Source of the DNA: Sinomonas humi
Lineage (GTDB): Bacteria; Actinomycetota; Actinomycetes; Actinomycetales; Micrococcaceae
Assembly (NCBI RefSeq): GCF_000802235.1
Contig: NZ_JTDL01000079.1
Coordinates: 62,001 to 126,000 of the forward strand
Direction of reading: 5' to 3'
Length of the DNA: 64,000 bases
In this document: piece by piece, positions 3,738 through 48,240 of the stretch
Layout of the letters: every line of letters starts with the position of its first letter
How positions within the stretch are numbered: position 1 is the first letter of the stretch
Notes under the pieces: generated by a model
What the model was told of the DNA's origin: nothing
Databases searched by the model: none
Seen by the model: only the letters and a program-made list of their open reading frames with translations
Position numbers and translations under genes: made by a program

Positions 3738-4253
3738 ATGCCCTTCTCGCCGCCTTCTGCCAGTGGTTTCGCCGCTCCCTTTGTCCACATGGCTGTCCAC
3801 ATGCAGGAGGGGGGCGCACTGAGCAAGCCTAGAGTACGGAGAATCCAGATGAGAACTGGGGAGAGAGGGTCAGTGAATTACACTGATGGAGTTCACCGCG
3901 CCTGCCGCACCAGCTCGCTGTCCACAGGCTGCACGTGCAATTCACCACAGCTGGGGAAAAAGAACCGAGAGCTGGCTTCGCAGTGTGAGACAGCCTTCGA
4001 GGCGTAGGCCGCGGAGAGCTGGCGTTTTCGCGCGCCAGTTTGACGGCCGGACGGCTCCTGCCCTAACGTCATTAAGTCCTTTGTGTCTGTCTACTGTCCT
4101 GTCGCATGCCCTCGGACGCCGTTGGAATCAGCTGATGCTGCCCATGGCGACCGGCATGAGGCGCGGCGGGGCGGCAGGCACCGCCTATACAGCGTCCGCC
4201 AGAGCCACCCGCGCCCCCTGGGCAGACGCCCCGGAACCACTGGAGTGACAACC
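3738..4253. promoter_or_regulatory. dnaA-rpmH intergenic region with DnaA boxes
   Basis: About 515 bases between divergent dnaA and rpmH with no convincing gene. A perfect TTGTCCACA box is at 3781-3789. CTGTCCACA boxes are at 3793-3801 and 3918-3926, and a weak TTCACCACA at 3941-3949. This is the strand-switch point of the local gene order, so it probably holds the dnaA and rpmH promoters and may form a second half of a bipartite origin. I could not place -35/-10 elements with confidence. Confidence 0.6.
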
Positions 4254-9985: not shown

Positions 9986-10004
9986 ACTTCCAGCATTCAG
10001 GCAA

Positions 10005-10029
10005 GGGCCGCTCGCGTAACGGGCGGCCC
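10005..10029 (+). terminator. Probable terminator after parB
   Basis: GGGCCGC (10005-10011) pairs with GCGGCCC (10023-10029) across an 11-base loop, 20 bases after the parB stop. It is followed only by a weak T-containing stretch (CTACTATTTG). Confidence 0.6.
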
Positions 10030-10046
10030 CTACTATTTGCCCTGGC

Positions 10047-10060
10047 GTTTCACGTGAAAC
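10047..10060. promoter_or_regulatory. parS site 1 of the gene-free region
   Basis: Perfect GTTTCACGTGAAAC palindrome, 61 bases after the parB stop and just after its probable terminator. Confidence 0.95.
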
Positions 10061-11142
10061 AGGACCAGGGAAGGTCGTCGGGTCCCGCGGGGGCGAGAAA
10101 GGGCTAGGAGCAGACCCTTACGACGAAGAGATCGCGGCGTTCTCGCTTTTGGCTCCCTTCCTAGGTGCTTCGCAGCGCTTCGGCTGGGAAGAGACCGCAA
10201 AACAAAGTCCCTGAGGTTGTTGCTCGCGCTTCGATACCTCCGAACGAGCCGACACGGTGGCAGAGTTGGGAGAGAACGGAGGGTTTGAATAGGGTCTTTT
10301 CCTTGGTCCTGTCGAGGTGTGCATCCTGTAGGAGCGCCGCAGAGGCCTTAGAACTCATCTCGGCTCCGTTTCAAGGGATTCCATGCAGTGGCACTTTATG
10401 AGCAACGAGCATGAGGGGCGATTCGAGCTCGTCTCGCGGATAGGTTCGTATTTGAGAAGAGGGCACCTTTCCCTCCATTTGGGCTAGTCGCGTTCCTCCC
10501 TGGGTGGGCGTAGCCACAATACGCGTTTACCTCGCGCGCGGTAGGGGTGGCTGCCGATAACCGGGGTGTAAGTGAGCCGATAGGGATGCAAAGACGCCCT
10601 CATTCATTGTCGGTTCAAGAGGCGAAAAGCCCGGGCGATCGCGGTGATCGCGGTGGGGCGCACATGCTTGGCTGGCTTCAAAAGCTCGACGATTTCGATC
10701 GGCGACGTCCGGACGAGCTGGACCTGAATCCATTCCCGCTCTCTGGGCGCGGAGGGCTCTATTCGGACCTCGTGCGGCACCTCTGGGCGGTTCTGCAAGG
10801 TTGGACGGCTGCGACGAGCAACTGCATATCCCGGTTTCCACTTGCGTCCCAGAATTCGTGATGAGCCCCTGATGTGCGGCATTGGTCAGGGGGGAGCTGG
10901 GCCTCAAGAGAGATCTTGGCCCATTACTGATTCGGACCGAATGCCAGGTCGGCTGTAGGGGCCCTCAGATGCCCACGGGAGAGTGAAATAGGCGGTCCGT
11001 GGGTTTGCCCGACAGGGGGTCCCTGAGTTTGTTGGTTCACGGCGTCGCCACCTCTGCCTGACGTAGCAGCGGTGTCAGCTCATTTCCCTGCGGTGAAGCG
11101 GGCCCGACGGCCACCCACGGTGTGTTTCACCTGCCACTGCGC

Positions 11143-11156
11143 GTTTCACGTGAAAC
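11143..11156. promoter_or_regulatory. parS site 2 of the gene-free region
   Basis: Perfect GTTTCACGTGAAAC palindrome. A degenerate copy, GTTTCACCTG, lies 20 bases upstream near 11123. Confidence 0.95.
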
Positions 11157-12184
11157 ATCTCCGGCGGCCAGTGGGGTCGTTCTGACTCTCCGACTCACTG
11201 CGAACCCAACATCAGACGAAAGCTGTCCTGCGGTGTGAGAAGCGCAGAGGAACGAGACGAATGAGCCGGATCTGCCTGAGAGCACCGCCGGCATGCTCGC
11301 GATTGAAGGATAGGACATGATCGGTTAGCGCGTCGGACGACTAAAGCCCTCTGGCTACCACCCTCGTCTGGGGAGGATTGTCAGATTCCCGTGAAGGACG
11401 AAGGCTCACATCGCCGGCCTGTGGCAGATGAAGCGGTCAGACGTCGCGGATAGTTGTCAAAGGAATTGCTGTGGCGGCAGCTTTGCCTAGTAGCTGAGAG
11501 AGCCAACCTGGGGGCGGAGGGCCGTTATTATCGAGGCTTTCGCGACCAGACCTGCCGGTTTCCCTGGAACAGGGATGGACGTGCCCCCCAAGAACGGTGA
11601 AGTTCCCCCACCCCTGAGGTGGATAGGAATTGGAGTCGCGGACGCCGGACAGTGTCCATCGCACAGACCAGAGCTGCATTGGATGCTATGACAGTCTCAC
11701 GCCCTTTTGACGCGGTTTAATCAATGCCCCTCCAAGAGGAGCCTCTCCAAACGACATGCGCCTGAACCTACAGATGCCCTGGGTCCGTCACTTGCCATCG
11801 TGTGCGGGCCCAAACGAGGGCATCCGGTGCCGTCCACGCACGGCGGGCGGTCCGGCTGAATGCTGGCCGGGAACGAGCCGGGATTCCATGGGGCAGTAGT
11901 CCTGGGTGAGGTGAGTGATGCGCCAGAGAGGCGATCCCTGCGCGGCTGCGTGGACGCTTGGGAGAGGGAATCAGAGGTGAGTCGGTGGGGCGTCCGTGCG
12001 ATGCGCGGTTTCGGTCGCGAGGGGGCGCCGCGTCGGAGCGGGTGCCGGCGCGGATGCAGCGGTCACGGGTCTTCCTTTCCCTGCTGAACCTTCAGTCGCC
12101 GCGGGGCTTCGAGCTATGGGATCGGCACTGTTCGGAAGGTAGGACAAGGACCCAGAGGAGGAGACACAAGTAGCAGGTATGCAT

Positions 12185-12198
12185 GTTTCACGTGAAAC
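12185..12198. promoter_or_regulatory. parS site 3 of the gene-free region
   Basis: Perfect GTTTCACGTGAAAC palindrome, about 160 bases before the first DnaA box of the cluster. Confidence 0.95.
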
Positions 12199-12342
12199 GC
12201 CACCTTCCCCGCTGTCAGGAGGGGGTGGTCGGCGAAAGCGGGTAGCCAGTGTCCTCGCTTTGCTGGACAGAGGTGTGCCGCTGCGCCAAGGCATAACGAC
12301 ATGTGAGAGGGGCGAGCAGCCGTCGGAATCATTGGTATCCGT

Positions 12343-12761
12343 TGTGGAATCTGCTGTGGATAACCGGCGCAGAAAACTCCACAGGCGGCCCGCCGCGGTG
12401 TGGATAACTTGCTGGTCGAATGCGTAGAACGGAAGCGCCCGCCGAACGGGTTCGAGCTCGCCGGTCTGCAAGGATCGGCCCCTGCGCCGCGATCGTCCAC
12501 ATGAGGAGTGAACCAGCGTGAGGAATACAGGAGGGAGGGCAGATTTTGCGCTCTGGGGTGCGAAATCTGTGCGAAATGAAACCTTTGCGGGGCAACTGAG
12601 ATCGGGGTCTGGCGACCGCGTTGGACTCTCGTCGGCCTGGAGCTCTGTGAGCTCTCCTTCGGGTCTGATCGCCATCTTGCGTGAGGCAATTGCGTCTTTG
12701 GGTTTCCCACAGCCCGATGGGCCCGCTTGTGGATAACTTCTGTGGACCATCATGTGGATAA
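12343..12761 (+). other. Cluster of perfect DnaA boxes
   Basis: TGTGGATAA (reverse complement of TTATCCACA) occurs exactly at 12355-12363, 12399-12407, 12728-12736 and 12753-12761, all in the same orientation. Related sequences TGTGGAATC (12343-12351) and TGTGGACCA (12741-12749) flank them. This is more perfect boxes than I find in the dnaA-proximal gaps. Function as an origin element, DnaA-titration site or relic is inference. Confidence 0.75.
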
Positions 12762-13554
12762 CGTGGTGCGGCTTCGTTGCTCGGCTCTCCGAAAGATCCA
12801 CTGCGAGCTATGAGGGGCCGCGTCCCGTTCAGATCGCTGTCGCCCTACGTGAGGGCCGGACGGTCTACAAGGGACGTCTAAGAGTCGGACCCCCACGCGT
12901 GCGCTCGAGCGGCAAGGCAGATGGCCCGGCCACACGTATACATGATGGAGGCGCGCGACCGAGGGAAAATTACGCTACTGCAGCGACGGTCGGCGCCGGG
13001 GTCGGGAGTTCGGAAGTCTGGAACCTTGCTAGTACTCAGCGGGAGAGCACCAAAGCACCTTGAGGAGGAAAGCTCGCGGGGGAGCTTGAGACCCGACCGG
13101 GAGAGACTTGGGTAGCGGGGATTGGGTGTCCCTTTGGGGCAGGACAACCGTTAGCCGGGAGGGCAGGACAAGCGTTGGCACCGGGCAATCGGAGTAGGCC
13201 GCTGCTATCGCCCATTCGTCACTCGAAGCGGGCGGGCATCGTCCCACTAGACGGTGTGCTGGAGATCGGTTGGCAGCTGACACGGGCATCTGCCTGCTCG
13301 GTGGACCTCTAGGCGGGCTGATGGGACAAAGAGTAGAGGACGTGGGGCGTGGGGTAGTGGTCTGGTCTCTTTGAGTGGAGTCGTGGTCTGCTGAGGGGCT
13401 CGACTACGACGACTGGTGGCGCAGGACATCTCGGCGATTTGGTGCCCCGAGGAGCACTGCCAGCTGATGCGGTAAGCCCGTCCGCTTACGCCATATGGGC
13501 CTGCGAGGCCAGCCAGGTTGGCCTACGCGGCCAGATTGGCGAGACGTACGCGCT

Positions 13555-13568
13555 GTTTCACGTGAAAC
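13555..13568. promoter_or_regulatory. parS site 4 of the gene-free region
   Basis: Perfect palindrome with the full 16-base form TGTTTCACGTGAAACA at 13554-13569. Confidence 0.95.
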
Positions 13569-14839
13569 AGCCGGCCGAGCTTTTGTCGGATCTGAGCTTC
13601 GTTCAATACCACGATGGAGGACGATGGCGGTTTGGCCCAGGATCGGGTTCGTGGTCATCCTTCTGTGAACCCGGATTGAGCTCCCGTTGCGGCGGGGGTG
13701 ACAGCGATCCGGTCTTGCCGGAAAGATGGAGGGCTCGACTGGCCAAAATGGGCGTTGACGCGGCGAGCGGCCTAGAACGACCACCCAGACGTACCGAATA
13801 CTGGCGCAACATCACGTACGGATCGTCCAGGCTCTCCCGGTCTAGGCTCTCGCGGGCCCATGGCACTGATAGGCCTAGACAGAGCGGTCAGCGCAGCGCG
13901 TGGAGCGATGGATTCCCGTCAAGGTGCAATGTTCTCCGCAGGATCCTGCGATTGCCGCTCGCGTCGGACATCGCCGTACACCGCGCTGGCGCCCGATGAT
14001 GCGCGGCCCCATGGACGAGCATGATCGGCGAATGGGCCCACCTCGCGACGATGGCAAAGGCTGGGATCTACCCGACTGATCGAGCTGAGAATTGAGCGGG
14101 AGAGAGAACCCTTCCGGCCTTGATGGGCAATGGGCCCCATTTGGTCAGTTTGCGCAGAACGGCGCACGAAAGTGCCCGTTAGTACAGGATCTGGCGTGTG
14201 CAGGTGAAGGATCGTACCGATGCTTGCAGATCAGCCCCGGGGACTTTCCATCTCAGGAGGCGTCCGTCTTGAGCGGGAAGGGCGCATGAGCGCTTCACTC
14301 GAGTCCGGTAAAGCCCAAGAGTATCGTTCTGACTCCTGGTTTTGACCGCGTCGAGACGGGGCCCGGATCGAACAGATGAGCGGCGGCAGCAGTGCTCGAG
14401 TGTCCGCGAGAAGGAGGCGGCCGACGCCTCAGTGCCGGTTGAGAGGCGGAACGGGCGGAACATCGGGCCGCTGCGCTTTGAGGTTTACGAAGTTGCGAGC
14501 AGCCTGACCCGCTCCGATTCCCTGATCCTCCTGGGTTTCGAGAGCCGCTTCTGCCGGGCCAGTCGCCAGAAAGCAAACTCGTTTAGTCGATTCGAGCCCC
14601 ACAGTCGGCCGGCGCGCCCGAACGGGCGCAGTAGCGGGATGCCTACCGGTCACAGACGGCATGCAGAACGCTGGGCAGCTCGCCTATATCGTTCGCCTAT
14701 TTCCCCTGTAGAGCTTGCTGATGATGTTTCAGCTGTCGCGGCTCTTTCCCACTCAAGAATCGAAGGTGCGAATGGGCATGCCACAAGTAGGCTTTTCGTA
14801 GCCCACGTTCGCCTGCACTATTTTGGACTGCCGCTTGCT

Positions 14840-14853
14840 GTTTCACGTGAAAC
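14840..14853. promoter_or_regulatory. parS site 5 of the gene-free region
   Basis: Perfect palindrome with the full 16-base form TGTTTCACGTGAAACA at 14839-14854. A half-site ACGTGAAAC follows about 20 bases later. Confidence 0.95.
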
Positions 14854-15176
14854 ACCGCGATGAGGACAGAACCAACGTGAAACAGGGCAGCGAGAACAAA
14901 AGGCCCCCATCGTGGAAGCGCTACTGCCCGCTGCTGCCTCGTAGATGGCTGAGCAACGTGGTCACCCCTCTTTGTGGGTAGCTCGGGCTAGGACCTTGAG
15001 CAAATGCGCTTGAAGTTTTGCCCAGAACCTGAGAATTGCACAGTCCCGATTTGTTGGGCGTGAAACCCTCACCCGTCGCCGGGCTCGGGTCTGACGAGGC
15101 GCGCTAGCCGATCTAGGCTGCCGTGAACTTCAGTCGGTCGGTCCTTTCCCAGCCGCCAACCGCCGGTCGCGCTCTC

Positions 15177-15190
15177 GTTTCACGTGAAAC
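15177..15190. promoter_or_regulatory. parS site 6 of the gene-free region
   Basis: Perfect GTTTCACGTGAAAC palindrome just beyond the trxA terminator. Confidence 0.95.
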
Positions 15191-15226
15191 AGGACGGCTC
15201 ATATGAGGATCCAGGAGACCAAAACA

Positions 15227-15265
15227 AAAAGCGAGGGACGCGGGCACGCCGCATCCCTCGCTTTT
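15227..15265 (-). terminator. Rho-independent terminator of trxA
   Basis: On the minus strand an AAAAGCGAGGGA arm pairs with TCCCTCGCTTTT and is followed by TTGTTTT. Arms are at 15254-15265 and 15227-15238. It lies 10 bases after the trxA stop. Confidence 0.9.
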
Positions 15266-15275
15266 GCGCCGGAGG

Positions 15276-15605
15276 CTACTTGCTCAGAACCTCAGACCAC
15301 TCCTTTTCGAAGTACTGCTTCGGCCGAGCACCGATCACAGTGCCGGTCACCTTACCCTTTTCGAAAAGGTAAACGGCGGGGATAGAAGTAATCCCGTATT
15401 CGGCGGCGATATTCGGGTTGTCGTCGACGTTCACCTTCACGACCTCGACCTTGTCCGAGTACTCGACGGAGATGTCGTCGAGGATGGGTCCGACCTTGCG
15501 GCAGGGACCGCACCATTCGGCCCAGAAATCCACAATGACAGGCTTCTCGGCGAGGAGAACCTCATCCGTGAACTGGGCGTCGGTGACGTCTTTGGCGTTG
15601 CTCAT
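15276..15605 (-). CDS. trxA: Thioredoxin
   Basis: Small cytoplasmic dithiol reductant, reduced by TrxB. The 109-aa product has the active site WCGPCR (residues about 31-36), the preceding DFWAE strand and the cis-proline stretch SIPAVYLFEKG. It lies 27 bases downstream of trxB on the same strand and ends at a strong terminator, so trxB-trxA form one unit. Confidence 0.97.
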   Translation of the reverse strand: MSNAKDVTDAQFTDEVLLAEKPVIVDFWAEWCGPCRKVGPILDDISVEYSDKVEVVKVNVDDNPNIAAEYGITSIPAVYLFEKGKVTGTVIGARPKQYFEKEWSEVLSK

Positions 15606-46242: not shown

Positions 46243-46516
46243 CCCCAACCCCGCCTCTGGTCGTTTCGGGTACGCCAACTCGCGCCCCTGGTCGTTTCGG
46301 GTACGCCAACTCACCTGCGCTTGAAGGCGAGGACGACGACGAAAGCACCGCGCGCCGTCGTCCGCCTTTGGTCTTCGCTAGCCGTACCCGAAAGCTCCGT
46401 GGGGAGGAATAGCTGCTCCCGGAACGCGATAAAAGGGGGAGTTGCCGTACCCGAAACGGGAAGGGGCAGAACGAGTGTGAACCGCTGGGCGGCGAGAGTC
46501 GCGGCGGAAGTTTACC
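46243..46516. other. Convergent intergenic region
   Basis: Some 270 bases between the sulfatase and the ABC permease with only the GTACCCGAAA-type repeats listed separately. The direct and inverted copies could pair in RNA across about 150 bases and act as a weak two-way terminator. I see no gene. Confidence 0.6.
46257..46312. repeat. 25-base exact direct repeat, two copies
   Basis: Identical copies at 46257-46281 and 46288-46312 contain the core CGTTTCGGGTACGCCAACTC. The reverse complement of the core (CGTACCCGAAA) recurs at 46383-46393 and 46446-46456. The copies lie in the gap between convergent sulfatase and ABC-permease genes. Purpose unknown. Confidence 0.85.
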
Positions 46517-47317: not shown

Positions 47318-48240
47318 GATTCCTCCCGGGTGATGAAGGCGGGCGCCGATGCGGAGGCGGGCGCGGCGTCGTCGTACGACGACGAACTCCCCGTGAGCGC
47401 GAAGAAGACGTCGTCGAGGCTCGGCGCGCGTAGACTCACGCTCGCCGATTCGTCCCCGTCGATAGCCGCGAGCACGTCGCGAAGTCCCCCGACCGTCCCG
47501 TCGATCGGGATCTCAGGACGGACGGTGCCATCGCGATCGGTGACGATGAGCACTTCCGTGCCGACCCGAGCCTTGAGCTCGCTGGGCGTGCCTTCGCCGA
47601 CGACGCGGCCGTGGTCGAGCACGACGACGCGGTCCGCGACCCGGTCGGCCTCCTCGAGGTACTGGGTGGTGAGGAAGATGGTTACCCCGTCGTCGAGCAG
47701 TTCGCGGACGATCTCCCACATGGTCTGCCGGCTGCGGGGGTCGAGGCCGGTGGTCGGCTCATCGAGGAAGACGATCTGCGGCGTCCCGACGAGCGTCATG
47801 GCCAGATCGAGGCGGCGCTTCATTCCGCCGGAGTAGGTCACGAGCGGCTTGCGGGCGGCCTCGGTGAGGTCGAATCGTTCGAGCAGCTCAGCGACGCGGC
47901 GGCGGCCGACGCGTGGGCCTAGATGCCGCAGGTCCGCCATGAGCCTGAGGTTCTCCTCGCCCGTGAGCAGGCCGTCGACTGCTGCGAACTGGCCCGTGAG
48001 GCCGATCGCGCCACGCACGCCTTGCGAGTCTCGGCGCAGATCGCGGCCCGCGATTGTCGCGCTCCCTGCGTCCGGCCGCACGAGGGTGGAGAGAATGTGC
48101 ACGGTGGTCGTCTTGCCCGCACCGTTGGGGCCGAGCAGGGCAAGGACGGTGCCGGCCGTGACATCGAGGTCGACGCTGTCGAGGACCGTCTGCTCGCGGT
48201 AGCGCTTCGTCAGTCCGCGGGCGGTGATGGCCATGGTCAT
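47314..48240 (-). CDS. ABC transporter ATP-binding protein (DrrA-like)
   Basis: 308-aa ATPase that powers the adjoining permease. Walker A is LLGPNGAGKTTTVHIL, the signature is TYSGGMKRRLDLAM, and Walker B is IVFLDEPTTGLDPRSR. The DrrA-type C-terminal extension ends SLDDVFFALTG. The ATG at 48238-48240 overlaps the DUF4097 stop. Longer upstream frames are not supported. Confidence 0.93.
   Translation of the reverse strand: MTMAITARGLTKRYREQTVLDSVDLDVTAGTVLALLGPNGAGKTTTVHILSTLVRPDAGSATIAGRDLRRDSQGVRGAIGLTGQFAAVDGLLTGEENLRLMADLRHLGPRVGRRRVAELLERFDLTEAARKPLVTYSGGMKRRLDLAMTLVGTPQIVFLDEPTTGLDPRSRQTMWEIVRELLDDGVTIFLTTQYLEEADRVADRVVVLDHGRVVGEGTPSELKARVGTEVLIVTDRDGTVRPEIPIDGTVGGLRDVLAAIDGDESASVSLRAPSLDDVFFALTGSSSSYDDAAPASASAPAFITREES

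Follow-up and report, generated by a model that had tools for sequence, protein, structure and literature searches.

The replication origin region of Sinomonas humi harbors a compact cluster of DnaA boxes that is real, conserved clade-wide, and of a known kind but unusual in its build and place. The most likely role of this element is the restraint of DnaA near the origin, and a role as the origin itself is unlikely. It is proposed, with a rough probability of 0.58, to be an oriC-proximal, non-coding DnaA site that would lower free or ATP-bound DnaA soon after initiation. A sequence-only reading had suggested three functions for the cluster (i.e., an origin element, a titration site comparable to datA, or a regulatory meeting point of ParB and DnaA); on the basis of position, box strength, and architecture, datA-like titration appears to be the best supported of the three.

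The window, i.e., the whole 64,000-nucleotide stretch that was analysed, covers positions 62001-126000 of a 185-kb contig from a 4.4-Mb genome in 156 contigs. Its DnaA is closest to that of Sinomonas susongensis (98% over the matched part). According to the open reading frame (ORF) list and family matches, the gene order is dnaN (-), dnaA (-), yidC (+), rsmG (+), a ParA-type ATPase (+), and parB (+), followed by a gene-free stretch, to the right of which lie trxB (-), an ORF without an NCBIfam match, and murJ (-). The family matches of the ParA-type ATPase all fall below the cut-off, such that its name rests on similarity and place. The genes at ~4.25 kb and at 15276-15605, which we take to be rpmH and trxA, respectively, were named by reading the sequence and by their position. 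The 3′ ends of the convergent parB (+) and trxA (-) bound the gene-free interval, referred to below as the desert. The features discussed here are as follows, with coordinates given in the window:

1990-2260, no strand: probable oriC in the dnaN-dnaA gap, with GTGTTAATAA, then TGTGGA repeats, and later TTGTCCACAG and GTTAATAAGG
9986-15275, no strand: gene-free parB-trxA interval (desert, 5.3 kb), from the ORF list, family matches, and flat codon-position GC
10047-10060, no strand: parS
11143-11156, no strand: parS
12185-12198, no strand: parS GTTTCACGTGAAAC, the closest to the element, 170 bp to the left of the exact box at 12355
12343-12351, minus: weak DnaA-box-like 9-mer (TGTGGAATC on the plus strand), from sequence, 12 bp before the first exact box
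12355-12363, minus: left group, exact DnaA box TTATCCACA
12399-12407, minus: left group, second exact DnaA box, +44 bp
12493, plus: weak opposite-strand box, from the scan with at most two mismatches
12498-12678, no strand: inter-group A/T tracts phased at 10-11 bp by period power, predicted curved DNA
12703-12711, plus: weak inverted DnaA box TTTCCCACA, 25 bp before the right group
12728-12736, minus: right group, exact DnaA box
12741-12749, minus: right group, weak DnaA box TGTGGACCA, +13 bp
12753-12761, minus: right group, exact DnaA box, +12 bp
13555-13568, no strand: parS
14840-14853, no strand: parS
15177-15190, no strand: parS

The element has a left and a right group, some 370 bp apart, with a middle of ~320 bp. 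Four exact copies of TTATCCACA (TGTGGATAA on the plus strand), at 12355, 12399, 12728, and 12753, all lie on the minus strand. The steps within the right group are 13 bp and then 12 bp, the latter being the commonest box spacing among relatives, and spacings of 44 or 45 bp occur 12 times across 15 Sinomonas deserts. The inverted box is found at the same offset before the right group in four other loci (L086, L087, L089, and L090). These assignments come from a scan for boxes with at most two mismatches that retain the GTGG core. The four like-oriented boxes of the sequence-only reading are thus borne out at 12355-12761 as part of a larger element than had been noted, as are its weaker flanking copies (at 12343, at 12703 on the opposite strand, and at 12741) and its distance of about 8 kb from dnaA. 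The element lies ~8.5 kb from the dnaA start and ~10 kb from the dnaN-dnaA gap.

Chance does not readily produce such a cluster: 100 dinucleotide shuffles yield a mean of 0.04 exact boxes per window, and none reaches four. Genome-wide (4.4 Mb), TTATCCACA occurs exactly 20 times versus 8 for the reversed control, and the degenerate TTRTCCACA occurs 48 times versus 18. The genome-wide count, suggested alongside the original observation, returns no second cluster of four within 1 kb, the element being the sole one in its own genome. The phased-pair pattern TGTGGATAAN{2,4}TGTGGA has a single occurrence there, at 12728; among 58 genomes searched, 31 have at least one match, many of them away from parB, and the reversed control gives 0 throughout.

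Two further groups of DnaA boxes in the same genome lie outside the window, on contig C134 at 46340-46480 and 47932-48052 (L123 6340-8052). They sit in gaps ~16-18 kb to the left of dnaA, where the plateau of the GC-skew minimum has its left end in both the own genome and G009, and the genes around these gaps, read by eye, are presumably of the pirin and acetyltransferase types. G009 and G004 have similar groups, and in G014 and G006 phased-pair matches occur about as far from parB.

The element is present in 43 deserts of the clade (the window's own included), namely 15 from Sinomonas, 16 from named Arthrobacter/Pseudarthrobacter, eight from g9, and four from g19. The trxA of the window was used here as a tblastn query. 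In the parB-trx interval, all 14 Sinomonas relatives carry TTRTCCACA in two to five copies of like orientation. In the first sample, two further genera with the element were represented by L096 (g9) and L098 (g19), and further sampling finds exact boxes in 7/7 g9 and 3/3 g19 deserts. Across the 43 deserts, every exact box (105/105) has the same orientation, and the first lies 1447 to 3386 bp beyond parB. The distance between the groups is 324-438 bp in the 31 Sinomonas and Arthrobacter-group deserts and 467-468 bp in two g19 deserts. Two loci, L146 and L150, harbor one exact box each plus clusters of weaker boxes, and phased boxes on both sides are absent from some carriers. L001 and L002, which have the same boxes and DnaA as L086 and L091, are excluded from the 43.

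Non-carriers were scored in three sets, whose counts are not additive owing to overlap (L020/L178, L023/L165, L028/L170, L029/L156, L042/L120, and L062/L105). The 24 non-carriers among the first 40 loci have no TTRTCCACA in the parB-trx interval, or up to the locus end where trx is missing. The motif is likewise missing from 49 of 51 further non-carrier loci with parB, the remaining two being L054 (one copy) and L067 (three over 15 kb), and 49 of 50 additional loci have no exact box, with one in L200. The single or scattered boxes of L054, L067, and L200 are not scored as elements; no trx gene was found in L067, and its 15-kb stretch is therefore not a desert. Some non-carrier intervals end at the edge of the available sequence, and 11 of 80 loci, with no parB match in their stretch, are unscored. 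The parB-trx interval ranges from <100 bp to >7 kb within one family and can hold up to nine exact parS. Three g7 loci (L151, L152, and L155) have intervals of 5.8-6.4 kb and 0 exact parS, and two other g7 loci have four or five; the three intervals may contain genes or altered parS. L032, a contig labelled Comamonas, has a Micrococcaceae-like dnaA with 77% identity to that of the window and is probably mis-binned.

In a quick tree built from 77 DnaA rows, every carrier falls within one 33-row branch (SH-aLRT 99). This branch comprises 32 carrier rows (L001 and L002 included) and a single non-carrier, L035, a long-branched metagenome record inside the clade. The nearest other non-carrier is L097. 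The carrier label requires two changes on this tree versus a mean of 25 when shuffled. L082, L083, L093, and L141-L150, which have no usable dnaA in their stretch, stand outside the tree and are placed by genus label alone. The simplest history would be a single gain followed by retention. Since related genera with parS-rich deserts lack the element, it is not essential family-wide.

The boxes are kept while the spacers drift, and the element is visible because most of the surrounding sequence has drifted. Every 9- or 10-mer shared by the whole set of 15 Sinomonas and 16 Arthrobacter-group deserts belongs to parS or to CTGTGGATAAC. Among 17 deserts from other lineages, the 9-mers common to all derive from parS, and pairs of box-like sites on one strand within 50 bp of each other were not seen. 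A BLASTN search of the window desert against 116 others gives nine matches at 1e-3. Four are to the nearest relative, L089, and correspond to the left group, the right group, one parS, and the trxA-side edge; the others are the right group in L090 and four matches in L176, L019, and L098 at parS coordinates. Boxes with at most two mismatches in the clade deserts number 363 on the favoured strand versus 43 on the other, and, of the 182 neighbour spacings that do not exceed 60 bp, 123 measure 12 or 13 bp. In contrast, the same deserts read in reverse give 68 versus 36 by strand and a single such spacing altogether. Helical locking of the inter-group distance was not found in Sinomonas and is at most weak in the Arthrobacter group.

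The segment between the groups is richer in AT than its surroundings in the Arthrobacter group, with values of 0.45-0.49 versus ~0.38, and slightly richer in Sinomonas, with 0.44 versus ~0.37. Evenly spaced T-tracts were first spotted by eye in some Arthrobacter middles and tested afterwards. With parS and boxes masked, the 10-11 bp power in the Arthrobacter-group middle is 3.5-3.6 versus 0.8-1.6 at the other printed offsets, and in a second alignment of this group the power outside the middle reaches 1.8. Without masking, it is 4.1 at 10.25 bp, whereas 60 shuffles average 1.5 and reach 2.9 at most. The mean power of the group is 3.65, and 0/20,000 resamples are as high, a significance that is overstated because kinship is ignored. 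The test was extended to nine of the 12 g9 and g19 deserts (L098, L146, and L150 left out), aligned on the right box; as the L096 middle had been inspected earlier, eight of the nine are strictly new. Their mean power is 2.38 versus 1.35 in non-carrier windows (bootstrap p 0.00025, too small a value given that kinship is ignored).

Tract phasing is weaker in Sinomonas. Two of three window offsets give p ≤0.0013 and the third p 0.09-0.18, again with kinship ignored and p too small. The group anchors were picked by eye, some on weak boxes, and windows with <4 tracts were dropped, such that 13 or 14 of the 15 Sinomonas rows remain. The window itself reaches a power of 3.87 at two of the offsets and 1.39 at the remaining one, the non-carrier 99th percentile being 3.47. 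Phased A/T tracts are the usual sign of curved DNA, and the inter-group segment is predicted to be curved.

Strong DnaA boxes are described as binding both forms of DnaA, while weak boxes bind only ATP-DnaA via AAA+ contacts (PMC6399470). Under this rule for the spreading of ATP-DnaA, strong and weak boxes spaced at 12-13 bp would nucleate short head-to-tail filaments. DnaA would occupy the perfect boxes and then spread head-to-tail along the phased weak ones, and the two like-oriented groups would meet across the bent segment to form a single compact complex. Because it is only ~10 kb from oriC, the element would be doubled right after initiation, and the duplicated element would draw DnaA off oriC via titration or via a datA-like promotion of ATP hydrolysis. 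DnaA binding, the bridging of the groups, and the sign of the effect are what we infer from the sequence. The action as a brake, in which a sink or site of inactivation is the first to be duplicated, is suggested by datA and by the clusters of Bacillus and Streptomyces. The orientation and the clade limits would also fit a structural role.

The cluster could alternatively be a start site or a remote piece of a split oriC, in which the AT-richer middle enclosed by the two box groups unwinds. The window has four exact TTATCCACA in the desert versus 0 in its own dnaN-dnaA gap, and the desert exceeds the gap in 14/14 genomes scored, by at least two in 10 and by one in 4. The skew minimum is not exactly on dnaA either. 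In the own genome and G009, it spreads over a broad plateau that lies 8-18 kb to the left of the dnaN-dnaA gap, and it is ill-defined in G004. However, the sign of the skew is expected to flip at an origin, and the non-coding GC skew in the desert is positive on the left of the element in 30/31 carriers and on the right in 29/31 (the right flank being short in several Arthrobacter loci), which argues against an origin at this place. In the own genome, the strand-corrected change-point residual has its best value, 295, at 42.5-50 kb of the contig, compared with 306 for the dnaN-dnaA gap and 320-340 for the element region (72-76 kb of the contig). In G009, the best value is 456 (60-64 kb), with 470-478 in the vicinity of dnaA and 488 for the element, and G004 is uninformative, with 509 to 518 everywhere. 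The skew keeps its sign across the cluster in nearly all carriers, and the fits in two of the three genomes place the switch to its left. The best point is also left of dnaA, for which we have no explanation beyond poor resolution; the skew argues against the cluster as the origin without pinning the position of the latter. As regards an unwinding element, the mean AT rises between the groups but does not exceed 0.50 (Arthrobacter group) and 0.44 (Sinomonas). The dnaN-dnaA gap is conserved and oriC-like, also in genera without the cluster. In the window, it contains several weaker boxes and conserved oriC-like landmarks, and GTGTTAATAA is found in 17/17 genomes, three of them without the desert element. 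The single TTGTCCACA previously noted in this gap (2228) was recovered, together with one at 3781, which is just inside the called dnaA ORF. With a skew that keeps its sign and a conserved oriC-like gap, an origin at the cluster was rejected, the origin option of the sequence-only reading is not supported, and the split-origin version is quite unlikely. As a separate observation, 14/14 carriers but 0/3 non-carriers have GTTAATAAGG near the dnaA end of the gap, and oriC itself may therefore differ between the two groups. DnaA acts as a transcription factor elsewhere, and the boxes might control a promoter for a non-coding RNA or small gene of the desert, two unannotated ORFs overlapping the element. 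Frames of the desert give only five short tblastn matches to other deserts (19-49 residues; the best 34 residues, E 3e-06). GC by codon position is flat in both crossing ORFs (0.62/0.63/0.60 and 0.61/0.59/0.60), Pfam has no match above cut-off in 6 ORFs, and Rfam has none at gathering score within the window, such that a coding gene or RNA in the element is unsupported. Moreover, the nearest relative aligns at little except the boxes, one parS, and the desert edge, and the flanking genes converge, which makes promoter control very unlikely.

The location of the element within a parS-rich desert raises the tentative possibility that box-bound DnaA and ParB clamps at neighbouring parS interact, thereby coordinating segregation with initiation. 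In 16/16 Arthrobacter-group loci, a parS lies to the right of the left exact box at a distance of 104-130 bp, a nearness matched by 2/1000 rotations, and 5/8 g9 loci share this arrangement; the DnaA-bound parS of Caulobacter offers a precedent (PMC6399470). In contrast, as many as 843 (Sinomonas), 379 (g9), and 541 (g19) of 1000 rotations place parS as near to the boxes, no parS occurs between the groups in the 15 Sinomonas deserts (best match 4-6 mismatches), and the 17 other-lineage deserts retain parS without box arrays. Taken as groups, Sinomonas, g9, and g19 do not bear out a general rule of fixed coupling between parS and the boxes. The proposed meeting point of ParB and DnaA is thus partly supported, the fixed nearness of parS holding in the Arthrobacter group but not in Sinomonas, and coupling may belong to one sub-branch. 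Three g19 loci (L098, L148, and L149) have a fixed layout of their own, unlike that of Arthrobacter, in which a parS is followed by an inverted box at +27 bp and a direct box at +42 bp. It is doubtful that the whole is a compound initiator-centromere element, in which two head-to-tail DnaA filaments are joined over intrinsically bent DNA in a parS field and ParB loading and DnaA inactivation interact. If true, such an element would be the actinobacterial equivalent of datA, independent of IHF, and would tie the segregation of the new origins to a brake on re-initiation. The element could also act in the opposite sense, as a DARS-like site that reactivates DnaA by nucleotide exchange rather than inactivating it, an activity that in DARS goes with a core of three boxes. 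DARS sites are described as non-coding box clusters as well, with DARS2 being IHF-dependent (PMC4585315), and the sign of the effect is not readable from sequence. Nevertheless, an early-doubled position beside oriC would fit a brake better than a reactivator, making this option improbable.

DnaA control sites outside oriC are, to our knowledge, known mainly from E. coli, Bacillus, and Streptomyces, the box cluster of Streptomyces coelicolor being named D78. Among the matches listed (titles and abstract starts) in the literature on DnaA boxes or parS in Arthrobacter, Sinomonas, and Actinobacteria and on the Streptomyces and Bacillus clusters, the element is undescribed. It is compact, deletable, and clade-wide in soil bacteria, and the related genera without it can serve as natural controls.

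The datA locus of E. coli is described as requiring boxes on both sides of an IHF bend and a weak neighbour box (PMC5835720, PMC4585315). The present element is similarly non-coding, its strong and adjacent weak boxes flank a predicted bend, and its sites are kept while spacers drift (PMC5835720, PMC4585315). Boxes on both sides of a bend and weak boxes next to strong ones are found here as 12-13-bp partners and phased tracts, the bending being predicted. However, the bend of datA is an IHF site, whereas the candidate bend of the element is the intrinsic phasing of tracts. Hydrolysis of DnaA-bound ATP and a lower initiation mass upon deletion are further hallmarks of datA. With a bend that may be intrinsic to the DNA, the element offers a way to test whether titration or ATP hydrolysis underlies the action of DnaA sites close to oriC.

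By description, the element resembles the clusters of Streptomyces coelicolor (D78) and Bacillus subtilis in that dense DnaA boxes lie outside but near oriC. The oriC-near clusters of Bacillus and Streptomyces are reported to repress untimely initiation (PMC4585315, PMC10950094). The paired groups and phased A/T tracts within a parS desert, clade-wide, set the element apart from these clusters and come from the present analysis. In E. coli, an excess of DnaA boxes around oriC has been argued to titrate DnaA (PMC12371093). Both this excess and the element are near oriC, yet the former is broad and regional, while the latter is single and compact.

In Caulobacter crescentus, DnaA boxes are reported at the centromere, and the parS region is bound by DnaA (PMC6399470). 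The element likewise places initiator boxes at a centromere, and whether initiator sites within the centromere couple initiation to segregation thereby becomes testable. Unlike those of Caulobacter, the boxes of Sinomonas are not tied to the position of parS.
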